From contig ONGE01000017.1 in assembly GCA_900317325.1 (NCBI GenBank), positions 1-64,000 on the forward strand: a DNA stretch of 64,000 nt, written 5' to 3'. Position 1 is the stretch's first letter, and every line of letters begins with the position of its first letter. Shown here in pieces: positions 3,136-34,707 of the stretch. Position numbers and translations under genes: made by a program. The stretch is from an uncultured Prevotellaceae bacterium. Its GTDB lineage: Bacteria > Bacteroidota > Bacteroidia > Bacteroidales > Muribaculaceae. The notes beneath the pieces are model-generated. The model saw nothing but the letters and a program-made list of their open reading frames with translations, had not been told where the DNA came from and did not search any database.

Positions 3136-3306
3136 AATAAATTTTTTTAAAAAATATGGAAAATATTTGTTCCGTTTCGGAAAAAATTCTTACCTTTGCG
3201 GAAAGAATTTATTCCAAATTCTTGCCAATTTTGACAGAAACAGCGGCAAATATACTATTTATTTTCCGTGTATATAAAAATTTTACCAATAATTTTCCTT
3301 AAAGAA
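3136..3306. promoter_or_regulatory. Divergent switch region with promoter and two palindromes
   Basis: The region separates the Cro-like gene (leftward) from the XRE repressor (rightward). A complete Bacteroidetes promoter for the repressor is visible: a -33 TTTG at 3166-3169 and a -7 TACCTTTG at 3191-3198, spaced 21 bases. Two palindromes bracket the -7 box: TTCCG/CGGAA at 3170-3182 and a perfect AAGAATTT/AAATTCTT at 3203-3223 with a 5-base centre, which covers the expected start site. These are the likely operators of the repressor and Cro-like protein. The leftward promoter is not clear. Confidence 0.6.
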
Positions 3307-4346: not shown

Positions 4347-4391
4347 AATCAAAATAGCTTTGCGATTTTACGACGCAAAGCTACTTTGATT
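4347..4391 (-). promoter_or_regulatory. Promoter inside a near-perfect inverted repeat
   Basis: Eighteen-base arms at 4347-4364 and 4374-4391 are complementary at 17 of 18 positions, with a 9-base centre. On the minus strand the upstream arm is AATCAAAGTAGCTTTGCG and contains the -7 box TAGCTTTG. The downstream arm ends exactly at the ATG of the phage structural gene (4346). The transcript would start inside the palindrome. Confidence 0.65.
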
Positions 4392-4411
4392 GAGCGGTGT
4401 GGTAAAAGACA

Positions 4412-7134: not shown

Positions 7135-7138
7135 ACCG

Positions 7139-7146
7139 CAAAGGTA
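7139..7146 (-). promoter_or_regulatory. -7 box TACCTTTG, four bases from the ATG
   Basis: The box ends only four bases before the ATG at 7134, with TTG-type bases upstream as a -33 candidate. Transcription should therefore begin at or next to the start codon, giving a leaderless or nearly leaderless message. Confidence 0.6.
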
Positions 7147-7180
7147 CAACAATTCTCATAATAAAAAATATTATCATCCA

Positions 7181-7691: not shown

Positions 7692-8290
7692 TGTATCTCA
7701 AGTCGGTATAGACATCTACGGCTATCTGAAAAAAAGCGCAAGCGCATCCGCTGAAGAAGTATCGGTCAATCTCGTTGAACGATATCCTCGGGTCGAGGTA
7801 GATGCAGTGCTGCTCCAGCTTGGTCTTCTCCAGGATCAGCAGCGACATGTACTGGCGGAAGTGCTCGCGCAGGGTCGTCAAGCAGCGCGTCCTCCTTGGC
7901 CGAGAGATAGCCCTGGTAGAGGTTGTCGCAGATGATGAACGTCTCAAAGGGGACTTTCTGGAAGTCTGCTGTCAATGCACGGTGTTTGCCGATTCGTGAG
8001 ATGCGCACGGGCTTTGAGGGAAGCGAGTCAATCCAGTCGAGCGCAGCGATGGCCGCATTGACCTGCTCAGCCATGATGACAAATTCGTCGTCAGCGAATT
8101 TGCACCACCATCCCTTGCCGTACTTGTGCATGACCTGCATGCCTGTCCAACGGAAAAGGCAGTAGGTCTTGACCTGCGGCGAGGGAAAGCCCTGGGCCAG
8201 CAGGCCGAACACGTAGCGCAGCTGGTGGTCGTCCAGTTTATCCCATCCCGTGGGAACAGTGAGATTGATTGTAGGTTTGTCTTGTTGCAT
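7672..8290 (-). pseudogene. Phage hypothetical gene, +1 frameshift
   Basis: From the ATG at 8290 the frame reads well for about 140 residues (TINLTVPTGWDKLDDHQLRY, WWCKFADDEFVIMAEQVNAA, PFETFIICDNLYQGYLSAKE). At about 7875-7880 it slips: one extra C in the run GACGACCCTG moves the good sequence into the next frame, which continues LREHFRQYMSLLILEKTKLE and CIYLDPRISFNEIDRYFF to a stop at 7672. The restored protein would be about 205 aa. I do not recognise a named family; its place just before the tail-completion-like gene and its size suit a phage morphogenesis protein. Assembly error at a homopolymer is the alternative explanation. Confidence 0.65.
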
Positions 8291-8297
8291 AATAAAA

Positions 8298-8330
8298 GCG
8301 GTTATCGTACTGCGAAAGTACGGTAACCGC
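8298..8330 (-). promoter_or_regulatory. Promoter inside an inverted repeat (copy A)
   Basis: Arms 8298-8310 and 8318-8330 match at 12 of 13 positions. On the minus strand the upstream arm reads GCGGTTACCGTAC and the centre carries a -7-like TACTTTCG. The palindrome ends seven bases before the ATG at 8290. Outer arm bases GCGGTT/AACCGC are shared with copies B and C; the inner bases differ but remain complementary. Confidence 0.6.
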
Positions 8331-8371
8331 CTCTATGCTTAAAAGACATGGAAAAAGTGTTGTCTGACGTT

Positions 8372-8758
8372 TTACCAAACACACGATACAATGACAACAG
8401 AAAAAAATGACAGAATGCAATATATGGCAATCAGCCAGCCTTTAAGTTCTCTATACTGGTCGTTTTTATATTTAGCCTCTAGCTTCTTGTATGCTTTTTT
8501 GTCCTTTGAATGTAAAAAGAAAACACTCACTATCATCAGTGGGATATAGATTGTCTTTAAGAAGAAATCAATGGTTTCACTAGGATAAGCGCCTGTAATT
8601 GCATAACGTAATATTGAAAAAATCAGCAAAGCATTGAAAACAATACATGTTTCCAAAACCACTGATGTGTAGCCATGATATGTATTTCTGCCCCATGAAC
8701 TGGCATTCCAGAACACACTAGCTATTCGAAAGTAAACATATTGAATGAGATTTGTCAT
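8372..8758 (-). CDS. Small three-helix membrane protein (paralogue 2)
   Basis: A 128-aa protein with three predicted membrane helices (about residues 33-51, 64-83 and 107-126). It has an amphipathic N-terminus (IQYVYFRI), a charged cytoplasm-type loop (DKKAYKKLEAKYKNDQYREL) and the C-terminal motif KGWLIAIYCILSFFS. It is clearly related to the preceding gene (8765-9157) and to 31492-31899, which share the (Y)xYxRI opening and the KxxR-x-(I/L)KG-x-L motif. It begins six bases after its paralogue's stop, so the two form one operon. No known family is recognised. Location within decayed prophage DNA suggests a cargo role such as superinfection exclusion or a small toxin/immunity function; that is inference. 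Confidence 0.65.
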   Translation of the reverse strand: MTNLIQYVYFRIASVFWNASSWGRNTYHGYTSVVLETCIVFNALLIFSILRYAITGAYPSETIDFFLKTIYIPLMIVSVFFLHSKDKKAYKKLEAKYKNDQYRELKGWLIAIYCILSFFSVVIVSCVW

Positions 8759-8764
8759 ACTGCT

Positions 8765-9157
8765 TTAAGCAAATATAATAATAACGGCAATGAATGAGAA
8801 AAAAGACAGAATACAATAAATAAAAACCAACCATCCTTTAATGACTCGATGCTTTTCTCCCTTATATTTCTGATCCAACAATTCATAAGTTTTATCATCG
8901 GGCCATATTCTCCATATTACAATCATACATATTATGACAATGGCAACTAAATACTTACTATAAAACAAATATGAATCATGAATAGATATATTGAATACCC
9001 ATTCACAGATGAGCATTGTTATAAGAGCAATGTTGGACACAATGCATAATGACAAATAAGTCATGGCATGAACATCATAGTAGTCCTTTTCCCATTGATT
9101 GAGATTTAACAAAGCATGAGCTATACGATAATACAAGTATTGAATGATATTTGTCAT
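8765..9157 (-). CDS. Small three-helix membrane protein (paralogue 1)
   Basis: A 130-aa protein of the same family as its downstream neighbour. Membrane helices are near residues 33-53, 64-84 and 108-129, with the charged loop DDKTYELLDQKYKGEKHRVI before the last helix and the motif KGWLVFIYCILSFFS. The start at 9157 (MTNIIQYLYYRI) is chosen because it aligns with the paralogue's start and because a TACCTTTG promoter (9179-9186) lies between it and the longer start at 9214. The gene is more AT-rich than the flanking phage genes. The function is unknown; the two genes together look like an independently expressed cargo unit (a phage moron). Confidence 0.65.
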   Translation of the reverse strand: MTNIIQYLYYRIAHALLNLNQWEKDYYDVHAMTYLSLCIVSNIALITMLICEWVFNISIHDSYLFYSKYLVAIVIICMIVIWRIWPDDKTYELLDQKYKGEKHRVIKGWLVFIYCILSFFSFIAVIIIFA

Positions 9158-9178
9158 TATGATTCTCTTATGAACACG

Positions 9179-9186
9179 CAAAGGTA
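9179..9186 (-). promoter_or_regulatory. -7 box for the small membrane protein pair
   Basis: TACCTTTG on the minus strand, 21 bases before the ATG at 9157. The same arrangement occurs at 31929-31936 before the third paralogue. Confidence 0.65.
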
Positions 9187-9255
9187 CACAATATTTCCCA
9201 TTTCGGGCCGACAAATCTCTCTAATCACTAATCTCTAACCTCTAACCTTCGAGAA

Positions 9256-9846
9256 TTAGAAGAAATAGCCGGAGGCTTTCTTCTTATTCTCGAATATAGG
9301 AGGCTCGAAGAGTTTGTAAGTGTTTGAATTGCGAAAGTGCGGGAACGAAGTCTCGTTCTTGCGCATCAGGTCAACGATGTCACGCAGCGACTGAATGGGC
9401 ACCTGGTTGCCCTGCAGGGCGGTGACAACGATCTGCCGCAGCTGCTCGATAACACGGAAATGGTGCGACGTGGCCACTGTCAGGTCACTGAGCATGGTCA
9501 TCACCTCGCTACGGAACACCGCCATTTGCTCTGGCGAGATGTATTCCTCTGCGAGGCGTTGCTCCACTTCTATCGCCTTCGAGCGCAGGCCCAGGTAGTT
9601 CGCCCACCGGTGTTCGTTGAAACCGCACAGATTGGCGAGATCGATGTTCGGGAACAGCGTTGCGCTGAACCATTGCCGCTTGGGGCTGGCGCTCCATGTG
9701 CTGTTGAGGAACAGGTTGTGAATCAGCTGCTCGATGGCGATATCCCGGCTCGTTTCCAGCGAGCCAAGGAGCCTTGATATCCTATGAGGGCTTGCCGGAG
9801 CGATATTCTGGTTGCTCACAATGCCGAATCCGTTCGGCGTGAGCAC
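9256..9846 (-). CDS. Phage-type hypothetical protein, probably truncated at its start
   Basis: A 196-aa, mostly helical, soluble protein (RSKAIEVEQRLAEEYISPEQ, VMTMLSDLTVATSHHFRVIE, LRDIVDLMRKNETSFPHF). No domain is recognised. Codon use and composition match the neighbouring phage genes and not the AT-rich cargo. The sequence upstream of 9846 shows no promoter or ribosome-binding site and passes quickly into an AT-rich stretch, so the beginning of the gene may have been lost when the element decayed. It may be a portal- or scaffold-region remnant, but nothing in the sequence settles this. Confidence 0.45.
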   Translation of the reverse strand: MLTPNGFGIVSNQNIAPASPHRISRLLGSLETSRDIAIEQLIHNLFLNSTWSASPKRQWFSATLFPNIDLANLCGFNEHRWANYLGLRSKAIEVEQRLAEEYISPEQMAVFRSEVMTMLSDLTVATSHHFRVIEQLRQIVVTALQGNQVPIQSLRDIVDLMRKNETSFPHFRNSNTYKLFEPPIFENKKKASGYFF

Positions 9847-22800: not shown

Positions 22801-25800
22801 GAGGAATTGCAGTGTCTTCAAACAGATCTATGACTTGGCCTTCAAGCTCATAGAACAAATTGAAGTAGTGATCATCTTCCTGATGGAAGTTTGCACCGAT
22901 GAATACCCACTTGTCGGCAGGTATCGTCTTATCTGATATCATCTTTTTGCCTGACATGTCAAGCACTGCACGACCATCGTCGGTAATCTCCATAGCAATG
23001 TAATTGTCATCGGTTCCGTGCTTGAGAAGCCTGCCACCTGATTGCCGTTTCAGCCAGAAACTGAGTGAGAAATCCTCGTCATTGATGGACAAGTAAGATT
23101 CAGTACTGATTTCCTGTCCGTTGAGCTGCAACGATACTTCATGATTGATGGGTGAGTCATTGAGCACACCCGTGATGGAGAAGTTCTCATCCTTAGTGAG
23201 ATAACTCTCGCGGATGGACTCGTTGAAGCGCGCATAAATGTCATCCGTTGGTTTGAGTATACCCATGTTAGGATAAGCCTGTCCCAAGAGCTTGGGCCCG
23301 CGGGTATCGAGAATGACTTCCTGCTCGTCGGTGGCATTCACTACCGAGGGGCTGCAGTAACTCTCGGCCTTAACCAGATAGCGACCGTCAAAGCTGGGCA
23401 ATGACAATTCATAGTTGATACTGGATACCTCAGCCGGCATCAGGGTCTGAACATCAGTTTCATGCCCCTCAGACAAGTATTGTTCGCTGGTTACCCAGTC
23501 ATGAGCTGTTGTCCATGTATTATCACCGATGAATCGATATTTCAACCTGACACCTTGCAGGCCAGTGAAGTGGCGATTGATGTCGCTGATTGTCGCAAGG
23601 ATTTTCTCTCCTGCCCGCACAGCATTCTGATTCAAGATGTTCTTGTCAAGATGCAGCGTTACTGCGGGTGCGGCAGGCACAAAGTGAGCCGAGAATGTAA
23701 TCTCGTCGAATGTCTTATCGGGCTGACACGGGCTGATGAGTTGCAGCTTGATGTCATTATAGTCAAGAATAGCCGGGTTACTCTGATAGATGGTAAGCGT
23801 CTGTTCAAGCGTCTGGCCATAAGGAATCCAGATTTCATTGGCTTGAGACAGTGGTGCACCGTCAAGCAGCACGACCAGTCCATCGGGATTGCTGACAGGA
23901 TCAAGATAGAGATTCACGATGTTGTATTCAAACTGAGTCTCGCTCTCGTTGGTCAGCCACAATTTGACGTTGGTTTGCTGTCCAGCAGGAATATTGACAA
24001 TATTGCGTTCAGGCATATCCACTTTGGGATTGTCGACTTTCATCGTCCCGTAGTTGAGGATATGCTTCCCCTTCTCAAAGTACTTGGTGCGGACCTCTGG
24101 TTCATAGGGACATCGTGTCTGTCCGGCTCGGGTCCTGAAAATGGTGCCCCAGTTGCGCGGCGATTTATAGATATCAACCGTGTGGGCCTCACCCTTGTTG
24201 TTGTCATTCAAGTTGTAGCTGAACACCTGCTTGAATTTCTTCTCGTCAACCGTATTCCGGGTATAGTTGTAGCCGGCTGTGACGCTCGTCTCGATTTGCC
24301 ATCCAGTTCCGCTAGTTTCCCAACCGCCCAACGAGTTCCACACACCTCCGGCCTTGAACTTGAAGGTCCGATCGCTTTTCCTCACGCTATCGGTTGCAGC
24401 CGATGCGCTGACCGTCTCGCCCCATTCAAATGAGACATTGCCTTGCTTGTACTTGGCTTCGTTGCTGAAGGCTTCAACCTTGTCTTGTTCGTTGAGACTC
24501 AATTGTGCCTCCCACAACCTGACGGACTCATTGAGCCACTTGACACTGTCGCAACCGTTATAGGTGAGCGGTGTCCTGAAGTAGTAGCTGGGCATCTCGC
24601 CAGTCGAACCGTCATTGGCCAACTCGCCCCACACTTCCTCGTCGTCATTGGATGAGCCAAAGTTGGGGTCATTCTCGTCCAGGAGAGTATAATAGGTAGG
24701 AACCGAGGGATGTTCTTCTATTTCGGTCAAGCTGTTGACATGCTTGAGTTTACTGTTCCTGGTTGCCTTGATATTGGGAATGAGAGTGCCCTCAATATAC
24801 TTTTGTGTATAATTGAATTGAGTGGCAAACTCTTCTCCCATGCTGATGCATCGGTCATTCCCCAGCTTGTAAGTGCCATCTTCTTGGGGCATGAGGTCAA
24901 CCTCATTGGCAGCACCGATGATGAAGTTGGTGGAATGCCCAATGAACACATCACCATCGGCACCAACAAATGTGGCAGCCGAGGACGTGGTCACACTGTG
25001 TGAGTTGGTGTAGGTTGTATAGCGCGCGTTAGTCCAATCTTCAGACAAGTCAGCCCCAACGTCAACAGTCTCTTCATGCTTAAGTTTTGACGTGATAATA
25101 GTTGCCACGCCGAGACCGAATGAATTGATAAGTTCCAGACCAGTGGAATACTTAACCTTGAGGTGGGCGCCTCCGTACGTGCCGTGAGTTGAGTAACTGT
25201 ATTTAGATGAAACCGTGTCAGTGCCCCATGTAGCGGTCGATGATGAGCCGGGCGGGTCGCGCAGCACCATGTCCACATAACTGGGACCGGCGGTAATGAA
25301 ATTGTTACCAGTGGGAACGACACCCAACACAACGCCAGCCATCGACTGCGGCAGCCAGTTAACGGATTTGTCAACCACAATGGTCGAAATGTTCATGGTG
25401 CGCAGGTAGGGGGCAGTCAAATTGGGCATGCCTCCCGTCCAGCGATAAGTTGCCTCACCTGCATGATCGAGCTGGATCTGATCAGGTTCCAGTTCGACGA
25501 TGGTTCCGGCCTTGATCTCATGTCCATCTTGGACGGCATCCTCGGCAGCGACAGCAACCCCATCGCCCATCTCATTATTGATGGTGATAATCGAGTCGGC
25601 CAGAAAATCTTGATAAACTCTGCCCTGTGGATCCCGATCGTAGTTCACATAGGGCTCATAGAGCTTGATCTTGTACTCATATTCGCGATGTTGCTGGAAA
25701 ATGGGATAGCCATAAGTATAGTTAACGGCACCTGTTTGTTCATCAACGGTGTAAAGCGGCAGTGCAATCTCGTGGTTATCACCCATGAAGATGGTGTCGG

Positions 25801-28800
25801 TGCCAAAAGCGCCGGCTGGAGCGCCCGTCTGCATCACTTCAAACACCGGCTGGCTGCGATAGGTGAGCATCATGCGCTTGTTAGAGCGGTAGAGTGGCAA
25901 GTAATTGGTGCGAGAATCGTTCCACAGGGTGTCAGGACGGACACTGTCTAGCGGGTTGGTCAGATCGATGGCAGCCAGGTTGCGGAACATATCGTCATTG
26001 CCCAGCTCGCTGTTGCTGGCAAACTTCACACTCTCTACCGTGTATCGCAATGGCGGCAGCATGGCGCTGAACTCGCCCGTGAGGCTGTCGGTAGTGATGT
26101 ACACGGCCTTTACCTCGTCGGGGTCATTGTAACCGCGCCATGAATAGCTCCTGATATCGTTGCTGGCCGATGGGGCCTCAACGGGATCAGGATTATCAAT
26201 CCACTCGACTGTGGTGCCCTGAACACGTTTCAAGACATTGATGCGTCGCTGTGGATGATCAAGCATGGTGAGCTTGATGGTTGCTTGGCCAATGGTGTTC
26301 TCGCTCTTTCCATATCCCAATGGGACATTACCCTGAGTGGCACCACCGGTGATACGGCCCGAGAAATTGACGAGCGTATTGTCAAAGAAATCCAGGTGGG
26401 TCTCAGACCTGAAGTCAAAGCGTTGTGGATATACTGCAGGATAACGCCCGTCATTCTCAAAGGTGTGGCCATTGCGCTTGATCTCAATGTAATGCTCACC
26501 AATGGGTACCGAAATGGTGTATTCGCCATTCGCGTCGCTGTAGATGGTCTTGCCGTCGCGTGTGCAGGGCGTGCCGTCCACATAGAACATCACGCTGTCC
26601 ACCGGCACGGTAGTGCCTGCATAGCGGATGGTGCCACTCACGGCGAAACTCGACACGTCGGAGAAATCATAACCGTTCAACGACAGTGAACTGGCGCTGA
26701 TGAAGCCCGTTCGGCTCGTGGGCGAGAATTCATGCTCTCCCAGCAGCGGGCGCACCGTGTAGCCCGTGCCACTGCCGGTGAAAGGAATTCCGCGGATGAT
26801 ATACTCACCATTGTTGTTAGTGATTCCATACAAGCTGAGTTGATCGGCGCTGGGAGTATTGTAGCTCGGGCGAGTGTTAAGACCCAGCTCGGGGTGGTTG
26901 CTGTTGGGGACGCCATTGGTATAGGAAGCGTCATAAGCATAACGGCTCAGGTTTTCATCAAATGTATAATAAGCCTTCAGGCCGTTCTCACGACCGTTGA
27001 GGATGCGATGTATGTCCTCTCCGATTTCATCGTTGGAGAGCGCCCTGTTCCATATTCTGACATCGTCAATGTAGCCCGTGAAGCAGTGATACATATCTTC
27101 CCCACTGTGGCCTCCGAACCAGATTTCGGCCTTGCCGTCATGGTTGGTAAGTGCGTAACTCTCAGTAACATTTACCGTGGTGAATGTCTTGCCATTGTGA
27201 ATCAGGTCATAGTTACCGTCTCCGTTATATCGGATGGTGATGTGGGAGAACATGCCAAATGGAGCCGTTGCTAACGTCTTCCTGGGTTGGGTGTCTCCAG
27301 CCATATAAAATTCTATTCTATGACCCTCGGCATCGGGGTACAATCTCACCTCAAACAGTCCGTCGAGTGACAACAGCTTGGCATACTCAGCTGGATTTCC
27401 ATCTACATCATCGAAAGATTCATCAGGATTAAACCACAACTGCACTGTGTAGGGTTTGTCTGCGGCAAAAATGTTTTGCGCATAGCTCATTAACGGGGTC
27501 CATGTGATGCCATCGCCGGGCTCCATGATTTGTCGGCTGGAGAATTGGTGCTGGCTGTCATTTTCATCATCGTTGCGTTGCAGTGACACTTTCACTCCAC
27601 TCACTGCTGTTCCCGTTTCAAAGGTCACTCGTCCAGCAATCACACCCGACGATTGACCGAATCCACTCTGTTCCATGTAGTTGCTCACCACCATGTTGCC
27701 CATGCCATCACAGTCGGTGCCATAGGCAGTCACGCGGTACTCATAGTAGCGCCCTACCTCAGCGGTCTCGTCCATGAAGGTGTATTCGCTGCTGGTACCC
27801 TGGGTTGAGTAGATCGTGATCCACTCTCGGTCGCCGATGAAGCGCCTCTTCACGTCATAGGCTGTGGCTAACGAACCCACCTGCTTGGCTGTCCACGTGA
27901 TGCGCACGCCACTCGAGTAATTGCCCTTGGAAACCGTCATTCCAGTGACCACACTGCCTTCGAGCACGTGGGCACTGATGGTATCGCTGCTGTAATGCAA
28001 CGCATCATCGACCAAGCTCGTCGTGACATAATAACTATAGACGTCACATCGACTCTCAGGTGTGGTGTCCTCAAAGGACGCTTTGCCGTCGGTACGATTT
28101 GCTACAACAGTGCCATAATTGAGATTCACTGTGCCGTCAGGGTCAATGCGGTTAACGGCAAAGGTGACCGTGTTGTGACGGTTAGGAATGCCGCCAAAGT
28201 CCCAGTTGAGTTTCACCCTATCGGTAGCGGTAGCATCCTGCATGAGCTTCAATGGAATGACAGGCATGGTGTTCACCCATGCCTCGCCGGCAGGGGGTGA
28301 GGTCAATGTCTCGGGAGAAGTCGGCACCTGCACATCACCCCAACTATTCTTGTGCTGGAACACTTCGTAGCGGTAGCGCTTGTCATACTCCAGGCCTTGC
28401 TCCGCACCATCAGTGTAATTATCACGGGCGGTCGTCGCCAGCAACTTGCGGTTGGTCTTGTAGTTACCGTACTCGTCAACAGTGGTGCGGTAAATCTTGA
28501 AATCTCCCTCGTCTGGCGAAACCTGACCTTCCCAGGACAGACGCACGTCACCCGTGACCTGATTGAACGATGCTGTCAGTTCCAGCGGATCGTTATTATA
28601 GGAAGTGTAACTTGTGATAGTGCCTGGGATGTTCTCGGTGATGTTCCAGTAGGTGCTATAATCATCCCGGCTCCAGTAGTTGATGCGCATCTTCACTGCC
28701 GTGCTGCGCTGCACATTTATCGTGAAGCTCTTGTCGAGCGGGACGTTGATATCGATTGTCTTGGCAGTATTACCGGTGTGCTCGTAGGTCACTGGCGCCT

Positions 28801-29641
28801 CAATGACATTACCATTGGCGTCAAGAACCGACACCTTATAAATACCACTATAAATATACTCACCGTCTGCAGTTCCAATACCGTTGCGGTGCTCGGGATT
28901 ACCAGTGCCCAAGTTGCGGTGATACTGGTCGGCATCTGGATCGGGGACGGCCGAGTGGTCCATGGTCAACTGCACAAGTCCCGGTTTACTCCATGTCATG
29001 GCAGGCTCGGGCACACTGGTGTAATCCATGGTAATGTCCTTGTCGTAACGGTAATAAATTACCATATTACGATCCTTAGACCAGAAATTATCCTGATGGT
29101 AATAGGCAAAGCCGATTACCACAATGGATTTGATGTTCCGGTCAATAGACTTTTGATTTAAGAACATGCGGAAACTGCCCCATTTCTCGTTTCCTCTATC
29201 ACTAATAGAAGGGCTGACGAGCGTGGCATAGGCTGGCTCGTCGTTAACCAAGCGCACGCTATCCAGCCCCTTGTGACCGATCTTCTTCCATGAGCCATCT
29301 GCCATATAAACATAGACCCAGTATTCAGTGTCCTCAAAATCCCAATCATTGGCTTGCGGATAATGACAGCGGAAGCTGAGCTTGATGCCTGGTCTGGCGG
29401 TTGTCGCCACAGCTCCATTCTCACTCTCAAAGCCGATGAATTTACCCATGGCATCGTTTCCGTTCTCGCCTGTGCACCACTCATAGGACATGTTGTCGGT
29501 CGTACGGTAGCAGTAGACGTCGGCATGGTACCTACCTCCACCGTTGTCAGTGTAATCGCCTGATACGGCATAGGACAACTGTGGCAAGCAAATCATCGCC
29601 ACAAGTACTATGCATAAAGAAATACATTTTAATTGTTTCAT
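19835..29641 (-). CDS. Giant (3268 aa) secreted LamG/fibronectin protein with T9SS tail
   Basis: The largest gene in the window, uninterrupted. A signal peptide covers about residues 1-25. Fibronectin-like domains occupy about 340-660. A LamG/concanavalin jelly-roll is seen near 720-900 (PYTVQLWFNPDESF ... GYIDDVRIWNRALSNDEIGE), preceded by a carboxypeptidase-regulatory-like strand set (GRVTFETGTAVSGVKVSLQR). Two more LamG domains lie near 2175-2540 (DFSLSFWLKRQSGG and DSYLIETWFRG ... GDIDEVRIWS). From about 2700 come beta domains with WNWISF and WNWIGP repeats. The last 80 residues (IVNILSTEQLTHVAVYSAGG ... RRVERIILTPGL) match a T9SS sorting domain. It is probably a surface-anchored binding protein or adhesin; no catalytic motif is visible. 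The 5' region holds a palindrome at 29678-29697. Confidence 0.8.
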   Translation of the reverse strand: MKQLKCISLCIVLVAMICLPQLSYAVSGDYTDNGGGRYHADVYCYRTTDNMSYEWCTGENGNDAMGKFIGFESENGAVATTARPGIKLSFRCHYPQANDWDFEDTEYWVYVYMADGSWKKIGHKGLDSVRLVNDEPAYATLVSPSISDRGNEKWGSFRMFLNQKSIDRNIKSIVVIGFAYYHQDNFWSKDRNMVIYYRYDKDITMDYTSVPEPAMTWSKPGLVQLTMDHSAVPDPDADQYHRNLGTGNPEHRNGIGTADGEYIYSGIYKVSVLDANGNVIEAPVTYEHTGNTAKTIDINVPLDKSFTINVQRSTAVKMRINYWSRDDYSTYWNITENIPGTITSYTSYNNDPLELTASFNQVTGDVRLSWEGQVSPDEGDFKIYRTTVDEYGNYKTNRKLLATTARDNYTDGAEQGLEYDKRYRYEVFQHKNSWGDVQVPTSPETLTSPPAGEAWVNTMPVIPLKLMQDATATDRVKLNWDFGGIPNRHNTVTFAVNRIDPDGTVNLNYGTVVANRTDGKASFEDTTPESRCDVYSYYVTTSLVDDALHYSSDTISAHVLEGSVVTGMTVSKGNYSSGVRITWTAKQVGSLATAYDVKRRFIGDREWITIYSTQGTSSEYTFMDETAEVGRYYEYRVTAYGTDCDGMGNMVVSNYMEQSGFGQSSGVIAGRVTFETGTAVSGVKVSLQRNDDENDSQHQFSSRQIMEPGDGITWTPLMSYAQNIFAADKPYTVQLWFNPDESFDDVDGNPAEYAKLLSLDGLFEVRLYPDAEGHRIEFYMAGDTQPRKTLATAPFGMFSHITIRYNGDGNYDLIHNGKTFTTVNVTESYALTNHDGKAEIWFGGHSGEDMYHCFTGYIDDVRIWNRALSNDEIGEDIHRILNGRENGLKAYYTFDENLSRYAYDASYTNGVPNSNHPELGLNTRPSYNTPSADQLSLYGITNNNGEYIIRGIPFTGSGTGYTVRPLLGEHEFSPTSRTGFISASSLSLNGYDFSDVSSFAVSGTIRYAGTTVPVDSVMFYVDGTPCTRDGKTIYSDANGEYTISVPIGEHYIEIKRNGHTFENDGRYPAVYPQRFDFRSETHLDFFDNTLVNFSGRITGGATQGNVPLGYGKSENTIGQATIKLTMLDHPQRRINVLKRVQGTTVEWIDNPDPVEAPSASNDIRSYSWRGYNDPDEVKAVYITTDSLTGEFSAMLPPLRYTVESVKFASNSELGNDDMFRNLAAIDLTNPLDSVRPDTLWNDSRTNYLPLYRSNKRMMLTYRSQPVFEVMQTGAPAGAFGTDTIFMGDNHEIALPLYTVDEQTGAVNYTYGYPIFQQHREYEYKIKLYEPYVNYDRDPQGRVYQDFLADSIITINNEMGDGVAVAAEDAVQDGHEIKAGTIVELEPDQIQLDHAGEATYRWTGGMPNLTAPYLRTMNISTIVVDKSVNWLPQSMAGVVLGVVPTGNNFITAGPSYVDMVLRDPPGSSSTATWGTDTVSSKYSYSTHGTYGGAHLKVKYSTGLELINSFGLGVATIITSKLKHEETVDVGADLSEDWTNARYTTYTNSHSVTTSSAATFVGADGDVFIGHSTNFIIGAANEVDLMPQEDGTYKLGNDRCISMGEEFATQFNYTQKYIEGTLIPNIKATRNSKLKHVNSLTEIEEHPSVPTYYTLLDENDPNFGSSNDDEEVWGELANDGSTGEMPSYYFRTPLTYNGCDSVKWLNESVRLWEAQLSLNEQDKVEAFSNEAKYKQGNVSFEWGETVSASAATDSVRKSDRTFKFKAGGVWNSLGGWETSGTGWQIETSVTAGYNYTRNTVDEKKFKQVFSYNLNDNNKGEAHTVDIYKSPRNWGTIFRTRAGQTRCPYEPEVRTKYFEKGKHILNYGTMKVDNPKVDMPERNIVNIPAGQQTNVKLWLTNESETQFEYNIVNLYLDPVSNPDGLVVLLDGAPLSQANEIWIPYGQTLEQTLTIYQSNPAILDYNDIKLQLISPCQPDKTFDEITFSAHFVPAAPAVTLHLDKNILNQNAVRAGEKILATISDINRHFTGLQGVRLKYRFIGDNTWTTAHDWVTSEQYLSEGHETDVQTLMPAEVSSINYELSLPSFDGRYLVKAESYCSPSVVNATDEQEVILDTRGPKLLGQAYPNMGILKPTDDIYARFNESIRESYLTKDENFSITGVLNDSPINHEVSLQLNGQEISTESYLSINDEDFSLSFWLKRQSGGRLLKHGTDDNYIAMEITDDGRAVLDMSGKKMISDKTIPADKWVFIGANFHQEDDHYFNLFYELEGQVIDLFEDTAIPPYTSVGRFSVGNEVHGAMHQLSLWNKTATKAEILENKLKNFPPYTPGIVAYWKMDEGHGLTVHDYARQRNMKLTSEQWNIDNVNLAAHLDGTTSLKADISRMNSRSTDSYLIETWFRGVPDSNVNATLFSITDNMSIGFGENGEMLLRTYDNGDLSSMSTWGNHFLITENDYCDGNWHHFALNVHRGVSAVVYIDGQAVRTLSEQVIPAPRGDYLYIGSMQRQVGSEIQDQFFFKGDIDEVRIWSVATDATTVTSQCYSMVDTASAVGLVGYFPMQRTRLDNNGNIVTEFSLENKVLPMFTLIPTHAMPTQAMTAPALKSAPDEQNIDFDFSASDREIYITLRERPSRLHGNVINFRLKNVRDDCDNLSENITWSAVADYNTLEWLVPKVEISVDRLDTYTLNATLCNTGSRDETYSLSGNPSWLLMSPTEGNIDLGSNANIRFTLQAGAPVGRHDVVIYARNSEEVYTPMLLVIDVKGNEPSWDVDVSQYESSMNIIGQFYLDDKIDQNPNTKVAAFVNGQCRGVASPQLMVSRDAYFVNLTVYGDDDMSLTEPVVFKIYSGNEGVVYDEVITLLNNVETPVNFQPNALIGTYDTPLIWVVGDKIEQTINFRAGWNWISFYVDPYEKPMGPEEAFGHDIAFKRINSKNDGFSLCDGNGWLGSLDHLDAGKMYKVRLTDNVTTHVNGTYIDPRETPQEIHNGWNWIGPLSIYNLTIDEAFADLGPQKGDVVKSKERISIYNGYKWEGLLNAIIPGEGYYYYSNDDDKSFFYPSGRAKKNAPLREMPEDTWSPFTPVPHQNFSDNMNVIANLWVQDERVDTAVVAAFIDGQCRGIVRAKDGIYFLTIAGNADESGKKVQFRTFIDGEVYAADSYVTFVSDALVGDLDDLYPIRVNTSGVNEISMNEAIIKITPTLTSGIVNILSTEQLTHVAVYSAGGALIHHSSYATSNELYKSSIDLSGNAPGVYFIEAVTSSGQRRVERIILTPGL

Positions 29642-29749: not shown

Positions 29750-30025
29750 TCACGCTGTCGTTTGCCATAAGTGAAGTACACGGCGTGTGTGTTTCACCAA
29801 CCTGTGGTCCACGTTAGACGACAACACCATTGCAAGCATAACTACGGCGAATGTGACCGCCAAGGCCACAGTGATGAGTTTAAGGATAAGGAGATCTTGC
29901 ATTTGTTTGTCGGTAATTGGTTTTCGTGATTCAATCACAAAATTACTATTATTTCGAATAGGGTCCCGACAATATGATAAAATTACCCGTTTGTATATCA
30001 ACCAAATCGGCTGCAAAGCGACCAA
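29750..30025 (-). CDS. Possible small membrane protein, perhaps broken
   Basis: A 91-aa frame with one strong hydrophobic helix (LILKLITVALAVTFAVVMLA, about residues 45-66). The residues before it look random, so a start at an internal ATG near 29900 is possible. After the helix the other frame reads better (AVYFTYGKRQRDDFVFKRYA, then QWCRTPL and a stop near 29700), which hints at a frameshift around an ACACAC run near 29790. I do not recognise it. No promoter is clear. It lies in a region of phage debris. Confidence 0.25.
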   Translation of the reverse strand: MVALQPIWLIYKRVILSYCRDPIRNNSNFVIESRKPITDKQMQDLLILKLITVALAVTFAVVMLAMVLSSNVDHRLVKHTRRVLHLWQTTA

Positions 30026-30137
30026 ATCGCTTATTTTGCATAAAAAGGACCTATATCTTCAACCGTTTAGTCCTCTTTTTTTTAAAACTCAATCCCATTC
30101 AAACATGTACATGATTCCCTATAGGATGACATGATTC

Positions 30138-30178
30138 ATTATGATACGACAAGAGACTTTTATAGGGCGTTGAATAAT
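30138..30178. repeat. Dispersed repeat of about 40 bp, copy 2
   Basis: Counterpart of 9989-10027 (ATTATGATACGACAAGA ... GTTGAATAAT). It directly abuts the 3' side of a phage gene fragment (30181-30411) and so may mark a recombination boundary. Confidence 0.5.
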
Positions 30179-30180
30179 CA

Positions 30181-30411
30181 GATCATGCCAAAGATGGCAA
30201 GGTTCTGCATTCAGTCAGCCAACGTCAGTTCTATCTCCATGGAGTAGTCGCCGGCATCGGAGAAGATGCGGTTCTCCGAAAATCAGTGCAAGCCGAATGC
30301 AAAGTAAAGCTTGCTTTAACTTTGTTGAGGTGCCGCCTGATTTATCCATACATACTCTATCGAAGAGCCTTTCCTGAGGGCTGCTTGCTGCCCGTTGATA
30401 GTGAGTATCAT
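30181..30411 (-). pseudogene. Phage tail-type gene fragment with a small insertion
   Basis: From the ATG at 30411 the frame reads MILTINGQQAALRKGSSIEY, the same opening as the fragment at 31410. After EYV it is interrupted by about 64-68 extra bases with stops, then resumes as SENRIFSDAGDYSMEIELTL. It has a stop in place of the Cys of ADCPQNL and ends at NLAIFGMI near 30181. The last part matches the end of the pseudogene at 3883-4346. It is a clear remnant of a phage structural gene, non-functional through the insertion, an in-frame stop and truncation. Confidence 0.7.
30280..30343. mobile_element. Miniature insertion with inverted ends
   Basis: Comparison with the uninterrupted copy at 31283-31410 shows about 64-68 extra bases here. 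The insert begins AAATCAG and ends CTGATTT (perfect 7-base inverted ends) and has an inner near-palindrome (CAAAGTAAAGC/GCTTTAACTTTG). It is far too short to encode anything. It looks like a MITE or REP-like element; a palindrome-driven rearrangement is the alternative. Confidence 0.5.
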
Positions 30412-30420
30412 AAAGCAAAA

Positions 30421-30452
30421 GCGGTTGTTCTCCACAAAGGTAGAACAGCCGC
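30421..30452 (-). promoter_or_regulatory. Promoter inside an inverted repeat (copy B)
   Basis: Arms 30421-30431 and 30442-30452 pair at 10 of 11 positions (minus strand GCGGCTGTTCT and AGAACAACCGC). The -7 box TACCTTTG spans the upstream arm's end and the centre. The palindrome ends nine bases before the ATG of the phage fragment at 30411. Confidence 0.6.
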
Positions 30453-30522
30453 CTAAGTCTTGAAAAGACCTTAAAGAATATTCACTTATCTTCGAGTCAC
30501 GGATGAGGTCTCATCGCTCTTT

Positions 30523-31194
30523 TTATTTGTTGATATACATCAATACTTGCTGTGCAATTGACCTCATTCCCTTTACGGTGGGATGATTCAGTTTCTTGTC
30601 AATATCTTTTAGCTCTATATATGGAATGTCGTAATGGTCACAAATCACTTTGGTCGATTCCTTAAAATCTTTATCCAGTATGTCATTGATGAGAAAGAAG
30701 ATTCTGACATTGGGATACCTCTCCTTTGCCTGCTGGAGCAGGTAAGCCAATGCGGGACGATAGGTGAAGAAGTCGGCCTGAGCGAAATCATCATATTGAT
30801 AAACGCCCAATTCTGCTCCCGCCCAGTCGTCATTAGTGGCTCCAAAGATGAAAATCACATCAGGGCTGCCCAGGCGAGGCAATCGGGTGACAAACGACCT
30901 GTAACTGTAATCTTCATTGTTGTATCCGTGGTTGCTGACCGTGGCACCGCTGTAAGAGTCAATTTTCTCAATGAGGCAGCCAGCCTGATTGATGACCTGC
31001 CACCACCAGGTCTGAGTGACATTGTCCACATCGGTTCTTGAAGTGTCGGCCGGGGTATAGTACCATGTCTCGTTTCCCTCGGGTATATACCCCTGAAATG
31101 TCGAGTAAGAGTCACCCAAAACCGAAACGCGTAGTCGATTCTGTGCACTGGCAAGCAGCGGAATCAGCAGAATGAGAAGCAAGACTTTTTTCAT
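30523..31194 (-). CDS. Secreted SGNH/GDSL-family hydrolase
   Basis: A 223-aa exported esterase-like protein. A signal peptide covers about residues 1-18 (LIPLLASAQ). The SGNH blocks are seen in order: block I VSVLGDSYSTFQG with the nucleophile Ser in GDS, block III FIFGATNDDW with the Asn, and a block V His in NHPTVKGM. The Asp normally two or three residues before this His is not evident (KKLNHP), which is a departure from the usual DxxH. Likely activity is de-esterification of an acylated or acetylated glycan or lipid. The promoter is at 31225-31232. The gene stands alone among phage fragments and does not look phage-derived, so the fragments may have inserted around it. Confidence 0.75.
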   Translation of the reverse strand: MKKVLLLILLIPLLASAQNRLRVSVLGDSYSTFQGYIPEGNETWYYTPADTSRTDVDNVTQTWWWQVINQAGCLIEKIDSYSGATVSNHGYNNEDYSYRSFVTRLPRLGSPDVIFIFGATNDDWAGAELGVYQYDDFAQADFFTYRPALAYLLQQAKERYPNVRIFFLINDILDKDFKESTKVICDHYDIPYIELKDIDKKLNHPTVKGMRSIAQQVLMYINK

Positions 31195-31224
31195 AACTAA
31201 CAATGATTGATGTTATTAATAGCA

Positions 31225-31232
31225 CAAAGGTA
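31225..31232 (-). promoter_or_regulatory. -7 box of the SGNH hydrolase gene
   Basis: TACCTTTG on the minus strand, 30 bases before the ATG at 31194. Confidence 0.65.
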
Positions 31233-31282
31233 GTGATTATTCCCCAAAAACGCTGATATTTCACTTTGATTTTGGTGATTTT

Positions 31283-31410
31283 TCAAGCGGGCAGTTCAAT
31301 CTCCATGCTGTAGTAGCCGGCATCGGTGAAGATGCGGTTCTCCGATACATACTCAATCGAAGACCCCTTCTTCAGCGCTGCCTGCTTTCCATTTATCGTC
31401 AGTATCATAA
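31283..31410 (-). pseudogene. Truncated phage tail-type gene (42 codons left)
   Basis: Reads MILTINGKQAALKKGSSIEY then VSENRIFTDAGYYSMEIELP and stops after one more residue. It is the uninterrupted version of the fragment at 30181-30411, cut before the segment seen in 3883-4346. It still has a promoter-like palindrome in front. The remnant is too short to be a functional structural protein. Confidence 0.65.
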
Positions 31411-31419
31411 AGAATAGCG

Positions 31420-31450
31420 GTTGATTTGCCACAAAGGTAAATCAACCGTA
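31420..31450 (-). promoter_or_regulatory. Promoter inside a perfect inverted repeat (copy C)
   Basis: Ten-base arms CGGTTGATTT and AAATCAACCG (minus strand) pair perfectly around ACCTTTGTGGC; the -7 box TTACCTTTG straddles the junction. It ends nine bases before the ATG at 31410. The segment before it (GTCTTTTCACAGCATA) is shared with the other copies. Confidence 0.65.
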
Positions 31451-31491
31451 TATGCTGTGAAAAGACGGTAGTATTGTTGTCGATTACATAA

Positions 31492-31899
31492 TCAGATAAC
31501 TATTATACCCAAACTTATGAATACTATCATAGTAAGAACATAGTACAGAAATACCAAAACGCCTTTTAATTGTCTATACTTTTCACATCCATATTGAGTG
31601 TTTAGTTCATTATAAAACTTGTCATTGTCATTATCATTAATAACAACTATTTTACTCATTAACAAGAATGTTATCAAGAGACAAGGAATCGCTATAGAAT
31701 AATACATCATATTTGTGTTGTCTTTAATCGGACCAACTGCCAAATAGACACATAATAATACAATCGATATGAGATTGAATAATATACTTCCCCCAACATT
31801 ACTGAAAGAGCAGTGAGATGAAAATCTATAACTCCATCCAAAATTCAAATATGCGTGGAGAGTACGATAATAAATGTATCTGAAGAATGCCAGTATCAT
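31492..31899 (-). CDS. Small three-helix membrane protein (paralogue 3)
   Basis: A 135-aa relative of the pair at 8372-9157. It keeps the opening RYIYYRTLHAYLNF, three hydrophobic segments (about residues 38-56, 66-86 and 112-134), an acidic loop (NDNDNDKFYNELN) and the C-terminal KYRQLKGVLVFLYYVL. The start at 31899 is chosen because a TACCTTTG box at 31929-31936 lies between it and the longer start at 31956, exactly as for paralogue 1. It is AT-rich and lies among phage fragments, 22 kb from the other two. No known family is recognised. Confidence 0.65.
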   Translation of the reverse strand: MILAFFRYIYYRTLHAYLNFGWSYRFSSHCSFSNVGGSILFNLISIVLLCVYLAVGPIKDNTNMMYYSIAIPCLLITFLLMSKIVVINDNDNDKFYNELNTQYGCEKYRQLKGVLVFLYYVLTMIVFISLGIIVI

Positions 31900-31928
31900 G
31901 TCATTAAGAAGAAAAAATGTTTCATCGA

Positions 31929-31936
31929 CAAAGGTA
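31929..31936 (-). promoter_or_regulatory. -7 box of the third small membrane protein gene
   Basis: TACCTTTG on the minus strand, 29 bases before the ATG at 31899. Confidence 0.65.
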
Positions 31937-31990
31937 GCGAAAATTTCGCTAAACACTCATTTTCTTTTAGATTTCGGTGATTTATTGTTC

Positions 31991-32063
31991 ATGAGGCGCT
32001 GGTACGCGACCTGACTTTTATAATTTTAGAAAAGTTGCTCAACCGATTATGCCTTGAAAAGAC
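31991..32063 (-). repeat. 73-bp direct repeat, copy 1 (phage gene scrap)
   Basis: Nearly matches 33189-33262. On the minus strand it translates as SVEQLF(stop)NYKSQVAYQRLMNN, a broken version of the other copy. The two repeats bracket the gene 32113-33093. Confidence 0.65.
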
Positions 32064-32112
32064 GTGCCGAATGGTAATATTTTCTTTTGCTGTTATATCT
32101 ATAAGTCATTGT

Positions 32113-33093
32113 TTATTGGTTGCGCATCACAATTCTTTTAATCAGTTGTAAAAGCAATCCAAGTAGCAATAAAATAATTAAAAGTGGAATTGATGGTATA
32201 AAAATAAGATAGAAGTAATTGCTGAGGAAATAACTTCCCATGATGTCATCAAGCTTTGAATAAAAAGCGTTCTTCGTTGATTGCCGATCATACTGACAAA
32301 TGCGGTCAAGATAGTGTCTAGCTATATATTTTTCAACCATTGAGTCCTGAGTTCTTCCCAACAGCAATCTCAACGGCTGGTCATCAACAACCGTTACTGA
32401 CATTAGGAATTTACCTTCATAGGCCTTGTTCCCTCTGTCAGTAAAATTACATTTATGAGAATACTTGTTTACGGCTCCGACGCTATCGAATGGCACAAAG
32501 AAACTGAAACAGTAACATAATGGGCCTGTCTTATTTTCTACGAATAAAAATGTGCCCACGGACAAGGTATCGATATCATTATCATCGAAATCTGATGGAA
32601 TAAGACCTTCAGATATTCTATACCCAAGACTTGGAATCCGTGATTGATGAACCGTGGTGTCAACAATGAAAACATCAGGAAAATCATTCAATAACAGATT
32701 ATTATTCTGATGTTTTGTTTCTTGTTTTACTTGTGACTTTTCCACGGTAACAGTCTCAGTAAGCACACGGCCATTTCCTGCCACTGAGTCAACATCAGAT
32801 TTCACATGATGCTTGAAAGTAGAGATTCCATAGTGTGCAACCGTATCTTGCGCCAAGAGATCTGCGAACTTGGAAACAAACTCTTTTTGAGTTATTCCAA
32901 GTAACAGGTACTCAGTATCATCAACACTATAATTATATTTAAAGGGTTGGGCAGGATGTTCATATTGCGTACGATTCGTACCGTCGATGAGATTACATAT
33001 AGTGGACAGCGCAATGATACATAACACTTCCAATGCCACGAAAATTGCAAAAAATTTCACAACGGCCCAATAGACTTTCATAAACTTCTCCAT
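32113..33093 (-). CDS. Hypothetical protein with membrane helices at both ends
   Basis: A 326-aa protein with an N-terminal helix (about residues 9-31, FFAIFVALEVLCIIALSTIC) and a C-terminal helix (about 295-318, LIFIPSIPLLIILLLLGLLL) followed by a basic tail (QLIKRIVMRNQ). The 260 residues between them would be on one side of the membrane, and the basic tail places the ends in the cytoplasm, so the middle should face the periplasm. The start at 33093 (MEKFMKVYW) is chosen over 33135. There is no recognisable domain. It is flanked by 73-bp direct repeats derived from a phage gene, so it may be cargo that inserted by, or was duplicated with, that segment. Confidence 0.55.
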   Translation of the reverse strand: MEKFMKVYWAVVKFFAIFVALEVLCIIALSTICNLIDGTNRTQYEHPAQPFKYNYSVDDTEYLLLGITQKEFVSKFADLLAQDTVAHYGISTFKHHVKSDVDSVAGNGRVLTETVTVEKSQVKQETKHQNNNLLLNDFPDVFIVDTTVHQSRIPSLGYRISEGLIPSDFDDNDIDTLSVGTFLFVENKTGPLCYCFSFFVPFDSVGAVNKYSHKCNFTDRGNKAYEGKFLMSVTVVDDQPLRLLLGRTQDSMVEKYIARHYLDRICQYDRQSTKNAFYSKLDDIMGSYFLSNYFYLIFIPSIPLLIILLLLGLLLQLIKRIVMRNQ

Positions 33094-33188
33094 AATTGTT
33101 ACATCTTTTTCTTTATAACGGAAAAGACACCTCATTATTACTCAATGATAAGTTGATCCAATTTGTTGGTTTTTGTGAGTAATTCTTC

Positions 33189-33262
33189 TTGAGGCGCTGG
33201 TACTCGTCCTGACTTTTATGATTTTGGAAAAGTTGTTCAACCGCTTTTATCTTGAAAAGATG
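33189..33262 (-). repeat. Direct repeat, copy 2 (phage gene scrap)
   Basis: On the minus strand it reads LFKIKAVEQLFQNHKSQDEY followed by QRLKKN, an open and sensible C-terminal fragment. Copy 1 at 31991-32063 has two in-frame stops. It starts with the same GTCTTTTCAAG-type sequence that precedes the palindromic promoters. Confidence 0.65.
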
Positions 33263-33270
33263 AGGCTACT

Positions 33271-34707
33271 CTAATTCTGTGTGATGCGCACAGCACGCAC
33301 GGGGAACCCGATGTATCGTTCGTTGCCGTAGTTGCCTTTATGGTCATCTAAATAGAAGAAAAGAATGACAGCAGAATACGAATGATTATCGTCATAGAGC
33401 GTGCGTGCCCAAAATTGGCCGAATGAACCTAAGTCGCCACTGGTATTATTGTATCGCTCGCCCGCAGCGGGAAGGAACATAGATTGGCCATTTGGCCCAG
33501 TTACCAATTGGCCAGTCACGCCGTTCCTTGTCGTCTGCTGCCATGTGCAAGATTGACAAAGCTCTAAACATTGTTCTCTGGATGGCATACGCCATGACGA
33601 ACCCCAATTGACATAAGCGGCATCATCTTCAAATTCTAGAACTGTCTTGTTGTCAACAGTGCCAAAATCGTTGTTTGTGCAGTACTTGGTGATAGAACTT
33701 TTAGCACCGTTACACCACTTGTAAGTTTCCCATGTATAGACCTCCTTGGGAGCGGTCTCGCCCCAAGCGAAGTAGTCGCCGTACTGCTCTGGGGTGTTGG
33801 CGCCCAGGTTGCACGTTGCCCATAGCGTACCACTAGGCAACCCAAGGTCAACATATTCATGATTATCTTGAGGTGCACCGCCACCCAGGATGAGGTCGAT
33901 GAGGGCATTGACATCGGCAATGTTGACTTCATGATCTAGATTCACGTCGCCAGCAGTGAGATTACCACTACCGCTCAAGATGATGTCAATGACAGCATTT
34001 ACATCGGCAATATTGACCTCGTAATCACTGTTCACATCTCCAATTATGCTACTACCACCATCTCGTGAGACAATGATGTGAGTGGCACGATTTCCATCTC
34101 CTCGAGCGATGAAGTTACCATATTCATCGTGTTCGACATAGGCATCCTCTGGAAAAGTGATAGCGCAGTTCAGGAAAGTAATGGATTCGCCGAATCTTTC
34201 TACTACACCATTGATATCTGCTTGTACGTTGTCAAACTTAAGCGCACACAGCACACCATCTCCACAATTAATGCCTTTGGTTGTCTGCAGGGTGATATCT
34301 TTGATAGTCAGGCGAGTGCATTTGCAATAAATGCCACGCATAGTGCTGGAAAGGTAGAGCTTGCCATTGCCCTGAATAGTCACGCTTTTACTATTAGTGC
34401 CTTCAAAGCCTATAGCCACAAAGCCCGTAGTGGTCAGTTTACATTCACCTTGGATGATAATTGTCGCCTCATCTTCAGTAATACGGATAGGATAAACATA
34501 ATCGTAGGGTGTCTCGCTACTGTGTTCTACAACAGCATTGTTCAGCGTGAGCGTGCGGTTGTCTTTGTCCCAGATGATGCTTCCGCTCTTAATATAAGGG
34601 CAATTGAAATGTCCGTTAGCATCAGGGTTCACGTCGCAAACGGTAATCTCGGCAACTGCACCGAGTGCCGCTACCAGTGATAGGCAAAGTAAGAATAGTT
34701 TCTTCAT
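33271..34707 (-). CDS. Secreted protein with two dockerin repeats and a FISUMP-like domain
   Basis: A 478-aa exported protein in three parts. A signal peptide (about residues 1-20) is followed by a beta-helix-like domain (about 21-215) with repeated short strands (RITEDEATIIIQGECKLTTT, IKDITLQTTKGINCGDGVLC). Two dockerin-type repeats (GDVNSDYEVNIADVNAVIDI and GDVNLDHEVNIADVNALIDL, about 218-272) sit in the middle. The C-terminal half (about 280-478) begins YVDLGLPSGTLWATCNLGAN and ends FPVRAVRITQN, the pattern of the Fibrobacter-type major paralogous (FISUMP) domain common in Prevotella surface proteins. The promoter is at 34793-34800. The role is unknown; dockerins here are internal, unlike the protease where they are terminal. 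Confidence 0.75.
   Translation of the reverse strand: MKKLFLLCLSLVAALGAVAEITVCDVNPDANGHFNCPYIKSGSIIWDKDNRTLTLNNAVVEHSSETPYDYVYPIRITEDEATIIIQGECKLTTTGFVAIGFEGTNSKSVTIQGNGKLYLSSTMRGIYCKCTRLTIKDITLQTTKGINCGDGVLCALKFDNVQADINGVVERFGESITFLNCAITFPEDAYVEHDEYGNFIARGDGNRATHIIVSRDGGSSIIGDVNSDYEVNIADVNAVIDIILSGSGNLTAGDVNLDHEVNIADVNALIDLILGGGAPQDNHEYVDLGLPSGTLWATCNLGANTPEQYGDYFAWGETAPKEVYTWETYKWCNGAKSSITKYCTNNDFGTVDNKTVLEFEDDAAYVNWGSSWRMPSREQCLELCQSCTWQQTTRNGVTGQLVTGPNGQSMFLPAAGERYNNTSGDLGSFGQFWARTLYDDNHSYSAVILFFYLDDHKGNYGNERYIGFPVRAVRITQN

Follow-up and report, generated by a model that had tools for sequence, protein, structure and literature searches.

The window, the entire stretch of 64,000 nucleotides analyzed in this study, contained three palindromes on the minus strand, each located behind a passenger (cargo) gene and in front of a broken phage gene (Table 1). 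All three had been reported in an earlier note on this DNA and were found to be real, with the third lying slightly apart from the 31420-31450 given there. As had been claimed, an ATG followed closely, 7, 9, and 8 nt behind copies 1, 2, and 3, respectively. The outer arms had been described as GCGGTT/AACCGC; this was broadly the case, but the plus strand read AGCCGC in copy 2 and AACCGT in copy 3. The inner arms were unlike between the three copies and complementary within each, and a -7 promoter box lay inside every palindrome. The common upstream segment was also present and contained a -33-like box (GTCTTTT) of what is apparently a phage late promoter, starting exactly 18 nt ahead of CGGTT in all three copies. 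The downstream phage genes were remnants, as expected from the note: 31 and 41 aa were left of a protein of ~650 aa behind copies 2 and 3, and 174 aa of one measuring 256 aa when intact behind copy 1.

Table 1. Features of the palindrome-bearing regions in the 64-kb window (box sequences as read on the minus strand).
Feature	Positions	Strand	Remark
Fourth apparent late promoter	4347..4410	-	GTCTTTT 4404-4410, box TAGCTTTG 4376-4383
MQQ phage gene, truncated	7766..8290	-	behind copy 1
Palindrome copy 1	8298..8330	-	slot 1 (DUF6712 gene / MQQ gene)
-7 box of copy 1, TACTTTCG	8313..8320	-	
GTCTTTT box of copy 1	8341..8347	-	
Slot 1 cargo gene, small membrane protein	8372..8758	-	look-alike at 8765-9214
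DUF6712 phage gene, upstream border of slot 1	9256..9846	-	PF20459, E 1.7e-12
31-aa remnant of ~650-aa phage gene, interrupted by short repeat	30316..30411	-	behind copy 2
Palindrome copy 2	30421..30452	-	
-7 box of copy 2, TACCTTTG	30435..30442	-	pattern match 30435-30469
GTCTTTT box of copy 2	30463..30469	-	
Cargo gene, GDSL hydrolase	30526..31194	-	ends before copy 2
41-aa remnant of ~650-aa phage gene	31283..31408	-	behind copy 3
Palindrome copy 3, -7 box in loop and upper stem	31417..31449	-	precedes broken 650-aa phage gene
-7 box of copy 3, TACCTTTG	31432..31439	-	pattern match 31432-31466
GTCTTTT box of copy 3 (apparent late promoter)	31460..31466	-	20 nt upstream of -7 box
Cargo gene, small membrane protein	31495..31899	-	ends before copy 3
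A-type cassette joint: left half of element fused to tape-measure gene end and promoter	31929..32063	-	
Second A-type cassette joint	33170..33260	-	

Hairpins with at least 11 of 12 pairs were matched 16 times in the window, with overlaps, including two of the three palindromes, and 0, 0, and 1 times in three mononucleotide shuffles; the copy at 30421 scored 10 of 12. The fourth apparent late promoter carried a 17-pair hairpin (arms 4374-4391 and 4347-4364) that abutted the ATG at 4346. The source genome held palindrome copies additional to the three in the window. Other observations in the window were an AT-rich hairpin on the plus strand at 3180-3214 with TACCTTTGCGG in its loop and no GTCTTTT, a YhcG/DUF1016 nuclease at 6046-7152 that is a possible defense gene, and a single ORF of 3268 aa on the minus strand at 19835-29641, in a region with dockerin-bearing proteins.

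A search of other genomes, as the earlier note had proposed, revealed a family. The loose pattern CGGTTNNNNTANNTTYGN{6,11}AACCG occurred in 71 of 101 genomes of one ruminant-gut Bacteroidales genus, with 2 matches to the reversed pattern, and a stricter pattern had no match in 392 genomes from other genera. A scan of public genome contigs yielded 102 stretches, mostly from metagenome assemblies and many of them ruminant, which depositors had named Muribaculaceae, Prevotellaceae, Porphyromonadaceae, or Bacteroidales; a scan of IMG/VR yielded 10 stretches. Removal of copies with identical 60-nt flanks or too near a contig end left 137, from which 11 matches in other taxa were set aside as chance, their inner arms being complementary at just 0-4 of 7 pairs. 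The remaining 126 copies represented 39 distinct arm pairs and the consensus GTCTTTT-N11-GCGGTT-NNNN-TAC-YTTTGNN-GTA-N'N'N'N'-AACCGC-T-rich-ATG, in which GCGGTT-NNNN-TAC and GTA-N'N'N'N'-AACCGC form the stem and the loop is mostly YTTTGNN. Measured from its first base, GTCTTTT preceded CGGTT by exactly 18 nt in 105 of the 126 copies. An ATG lay 7-9 nt past AACCG in 82 of 126 copies (8 or 9 nt in 76), which would place the start codon next to the helix in read-through RNA; 32 copies had no ATG within 25 nt. Many copies preceded broken genes. The loop or the whole palindrome was inverted in some broken loci (L218:1671-1700, L047 near 10830, and L014:5427-5457).

The two boxes also occurred as a pair outside the palindrome family. 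With recognized elements of the family excluded, TAnnTTYG followed GTCTTTT 45 times at a distance of exactly 20 nt (N20), and at most once at each other distance from 8 to 40; seven of the 45 looked by eye like diverged copies of the element. Four altered boxes used as controls gave no spacing peak. Across the genus, exact matches were present in 94 of 101 genomes (elements included), with ~550 matches in total against 16 for the reversed pattern; of the six in the single-contig genome G077, five lay inside a 29-kb stretch of one strand. Most genomes from the order's other genera had counts at the control level. The genes behind this pattern included tape measures, a head maturation protease, and relatives of a portal-like protein (PHROG E 1.4e-4). 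Judged by its sequence, GTCTTTT-N20-TAnnTTTG is a spacing-exact promoter before virion genes and apparently the late promoter of these phages, and we infer its late action from the kind of genes that it precedes.

Pairing around the -7 box was common at these promoters. Among 101 late promoters, about six of which were diverged copies of the element and several of which were the same promoter in related phages and thus not independent, 57 had a stem of at least 8 pairs that included the box, compared with 11% when the downstream part was shuffled, 112 of 812 at other boxes, and 21 of 130 among other boxes with TTT or TTG at -33. In a set of 94 promoters, 49 had no CAAA in the leader; in the other 45, the two bases following CAAA complemented the variable -7 bases in 19 cases (shuffled mean 4.0, maximum 11). 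At other TAnnTTTG boxes, the leader complement was found in 25 of 218 cases versus a shuffled mean of 18.6. In some other late genes, the leader arm abutted or contained the ATG.

The position of the element in phage genomes was tied to the presence of cargo. In an intact prophage, the order was tape-measure gene, cargo gene, element, ~650-aa gene, and an integrase gene on the opposite strand; PHROGs matches were obtained for the tape measure and one integrase, the latter at the prophage end. The ~650-aa protein matched no Pfam or PHROGs family, and its predicted structure (pLDDT 34) was too low in confidence to be used. A 69-kb IMG/VR record had two cargo-bearing slots and exactly two elements, slot 1 lying between the DUF6712 and MQQ genes and slot 2 between the tape measure and the 650-aa gene. 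A third position was upstream of the DUF6712 gene (three elements, loci L127 and L136 among them), and a fourth lay ahead of a 213-aa gene (L171); in the 69-kb record, the relative of that gene overlapped its upstream neighbor and preceded a terminase-like gene. Palindromes upstream of the tape-measure gene (L175 and L236) were considered as a further cargo slot and rejected; no cargo was seen there, and they resembled plain late promoters.

Slots were compared at loci collected by protein searches, so that the palindrome did not choose them: 29 best-match MQQ loci and the 42 listed 650-aa matches that started at residue 3 or earlier and covered most of the protein. A slot was scored as empty when the flanking genes abutted and as filled when the gap exceeded 100 nt, and the element was sought within 140 nt of the gene start. 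Gaps were -17 to +23 nt in empty slots (one of 100 nt) and at least 332 nt in filled ones. Of these 71 slots, 32 were filled and 26 empty. The element was present in 29 of the filled slots and in no empty one, and the exact GTCTTTT-N20-box pattern in 30 and none, respectively. For the remaining 13, no upstream border was located; 8 of them had the element. The three filled exceptions comprised L241, with the promoter and a weak hairpin (8 of 12 pairs), and L248 and L250, with neither; in L250, the 650-aa relative stood immediately behind an MQQ-type gene. When all loci were counted however they had been fetched, after removal of rows with less than 35% identity and of a single false match in the window, the element was found in 64 of 67 filled slots, 0 of 29 empty slots, and 28 of 41 whose state was unassigned. 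In a null set of 3000 random windows, 27 scored 9 or more, and some of these were not chance, as the source loci contain real elements. The palindrome was linked to inserted cargo, not to phage genes at large, and one palindrome form stands at the end of almost all passenger genes inserted among the virion genes.

The cargo itself was diverse. An ORF ended within 250 nt upstream of 84 of 92 elements, with a median of 12.5 nt from its stop codon to GTCTTTT, and the 84 cargo proteins formed 59 families (single linkage, E 1e-5). Pfam matches among the 59 representatives included nucleases, hydrolases, an HTH protein, a response regulator, and a TonB C-terminus, and PADLOC matches among the cargo included PD-T4-3, RmrA, and several candidate families. 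In locus L127 (2354-3008), the ORF pair ahead of the element resembled by eye a nucleotidyltransferase/HEPN pair, possibly defense genes. These genes agreed with morons in being inserted between genes that are adjacent in relatives, and in having a candidate promoter of their own, TAnnTTYG, a weak motif, between the phage gene stop and the cargo ATG in 40 of 47 readable cases. Since some families were found in both slots while the inner arms remained slot-typical across loci, cargo seems to be swapped against a resident element.

Single-gene cassettes also stood in tandem arrays parted by A-type joints, as in the window at 30523-33260 and in L008, L045, L046, L024, L028, and others. An A-type joint consisted of the left half of the element, a short piece found only at joints within the collected loci, and the end of a tape-measure gene with a promoter. 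Such joints occurred in 23 loci and bounded 37 cassettes; one 1.1-kb cassette was 99-100% identical in three genomes, each with a different next joint. The arrays were integron-like in appearance, perhaps without an integron. The half-sites of an integron attC site follow the order RYYYAAC ... GTTRRRY. An attC reading was considered on account of the arrays, the palindromes abutting ORFs, and the variable complementary stems, and was rejected because the half-sites here run the opposite way (GGTT ... AACC). A ~70-bp repeat of the GGATAAATCAGGCGGC...CGGCTTGCACTGATTTTC type was seen in phage gene remnants (window 30280-30349, with similar copies in L049, L104, L152, and L091), in some copies in the opposite orientation, and is perhaps a small mobile element of this genus.

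The hairpin had the form of an intrinsic terminator, combining a stable stem of up to 13 bp with a T-tract. In the first 7 nt past the stem, the frequency of T was 0.74 across 89 elements versus 0.27 ahead of the ATG in 1542 long ORFs from those loci, and at least five T were present in the 7 nt before the ATG in 79% of 84 elements with a readable ATG versus 5% of controls. A simple terminator scan of 30000-33400 reported none of the palindromes, missing the copies at 30421 and 31417. In predicted folds, the mean minimum free energy was -16.4 for the hairpin and -0.4 for RNA, with ten A added, that began 5 nt past the box.

We lean toward a reading in which the palindrome punctuates the downstream side of a moron, here a cargo gene set into a phage late operon, and joins a terminator-like hairpin to a copy of the phages' own late promoter, whose -7 box lies within the loop and upper stem. 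RNA from the cargo promoter would contain both arms and fold, so that it would be terminated or would leave the next phage gene untranslated. RNA from the embedded late promoter would begin past the box, without the 5' arm and unable to fold, and would restart the interrupted virion genes. Ordinary late promoters may follow the same logic, with the -7 box itself serving as the 5' arm. For a temperate phage, separately transcribed cargo would thus be kept from driving virion genes, and induction would restart them. In these prophages of rumen bacteria, the palindromes that enclose the start signals of many virus genes probably silence run-through RNA in this way and admit only properly started messages.

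The covariation of the arms bears on this reading and on its rivals. It was examined in 87 distinct rows with at least 9 of 12 pairs, in which elements were found via the downstream gene at loci however fetched. The earlier claim of covarying arms held for the stem as a group: in a tree-aware test, with the tree built from the same short element sequences, Watson-Crick pairs made up 0.898 of pair cells (null mean 0.709, maximum 0.842, 400 replicates), and both partners had changed on 12-13 branches (null mean 2.2, maximum 8, 400 tree-based replicates). At individual positions, an R-scape-like test found no single stem pair significant (best E 5.6). On the sense strand there was no wobble bias, with 20 G-T and 21 A-C cells in 38 distinct arm pairs, and antisense hairpins were on average more stable (-17.9 versus -16.4, the sense hairpin being better in 26 of 89). 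Because A-C mismatches were about as frequent as G-T and the antisense hairpin was not weaker, pairing in RNA is not favored over a function at the DNA level. Under a DNA-operator reading, the palindrome over the -7 box would be the binding site of a dimeric phage regulator, and its capacity to form a hairpin a by-product. This would accord with these mismatches, with the centering of the palindrome on the box, and with outer pairs that were less variable than the inner four in the gene-located set. Even so, we regard it as unlikely, since the inner arms, and in a few copies also the outer arms together (CGATT/AATCG and CAGTT/AACTG), had changed while remaining complementary, which a fixed binding site does not need, and since it leaves the T-tract and the restriction to filled slots unexplained.

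Complementary arms could also arise by mutation, through template-switch correction of quasi-palindromes, with no selection for pairing. The inverted loops in the relics L218 and L047 (near 10830) are a possible product of such switching; those seen were, however, in broken loci. The absence of the element from 26 of 26 empty slots and the enrichment of box-leader pairing at late promoters, unlike other TAnnTTTG boxes, make this origin quite improbable. Nor is there support for palindromes as a general design of host promoters: among 1155 distinct TAnnTTTG boxes in the collected loci, flanking hairpins of at least 10 of 12 pairs were nearly all this element or diverged copies, with four exceptions by eye. 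A plain terminator of the cargo gene with a -7-like box in its loop by chance would suit the long stem, the T-tract, and the nearby cargo stop, but is very improbable given the fixed 18 nt to GTCTTTT and the same box pair at N20 ahead of virion genes that have no GCGGTT palindrome. The virion RNA polymerase of phage N4 reads an extruded DNA-hairpin promoter, and a conserved YTTTG loop on a variable but complementary stem would suit such a mechanism here, yet we find it hardly credible, as a box 20 nt from GTCTTTT is what an ordinary double-stranded promoter would show, and a box-covering stem of at least 8 pairs was lacking at 44 of the 101 late promoters.

The punctuation reading offers a proposed route by which virion genes stay silent despite separately expressed cargo upstream in the same operon. 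The study also defines a sequence-recognizable, probably late promoter for uncultured Bacteroidales prophages, and the element, as a marker of cargo boundaries, offers a means of finding phage accessory genes in metagenomes, here from 59 families, some of them defense-like. More tentatively, the late genes might form a regulon of self-masking promoters, in which the leader at many late starts would contain a sequence complementary to the start's own -7 box or to flanking arms. Virion genes would then be expressed only from promoters fired at induction, not by lysogenic transcripts reading through, and the operon would tolerate passengers; cargo might be swapped freely in at least four slots between a promoter and a resident hairpin-promoter, and accumulate on the chromosome in arrays resembling integron cassettes, perhaps with no integron involved. 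A search of titles and abstracts in the open-access literature found no paper on this promoter or element, which is weak evidence, as subscription papers lay outside its scope.

Several known systems share parts of this design. Lambdoid phage morons are extra genes between conserved late genes. The ant moron of P22-like phages (PMC2629481) likewise involves extra genes between conserved late genes that are absent in some relatives, and is thought to affect read-through into the tailspike gene, suggesting that such interference matters. Unlike lambdoid and P22-like morons, one common module ends the cargo of 59 families here and carries a late promoter that possibly restarts the operon. The -7 box TAnnTTTG is that of the Bacteroidetes sigma-ABfr promoters (PMC7366714), whereas GTCTTTT, always 20 nt away, takes the place of their -33 TTTG. 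The stem-loops of IS200, as covered in part of PMC3196728, similarly terminate incoming RNA and mask the ribosome site, but there a transposase is shielded from outside transcription, and those pages mention no hairpin promoter.

The closest parallel is phage T4, and the statement in the earlier note that no described promoter has this design is not supported, because T4 e and I-TevI use similar leader hairpins. In the sections of PMC3014915 and PMC2988022 at hand, e, soc, 49, and I-TevI are described as having inhibitory leader hairpins in long RNA, and the late promoters of e and I-TevI as being placed so that their own transcript has no 5' part of the hairpin. The geometry in our phages is compatible with this logic: longer read-through RNA could fold at the gene start, and RNA of the late promoter would have no 5' arm. 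The T4 late promoter is TATAAATA, used with the T4 late sigma factor, whereas TAnnTTTG and GTCTTTT were found here, and the T-tract has no counterpart among the T4 leader hairpins as described in those sections. Unlike T4, the phages of this study are temperate and infect Bacteroidales, the arrangement extends to several late genes, and one form of it is linked to inserted cargo. The self-masking regulon, if real, would broaden an idea known from several T4 genes, applying it across a large part of the late regulon of phages in another phylum.
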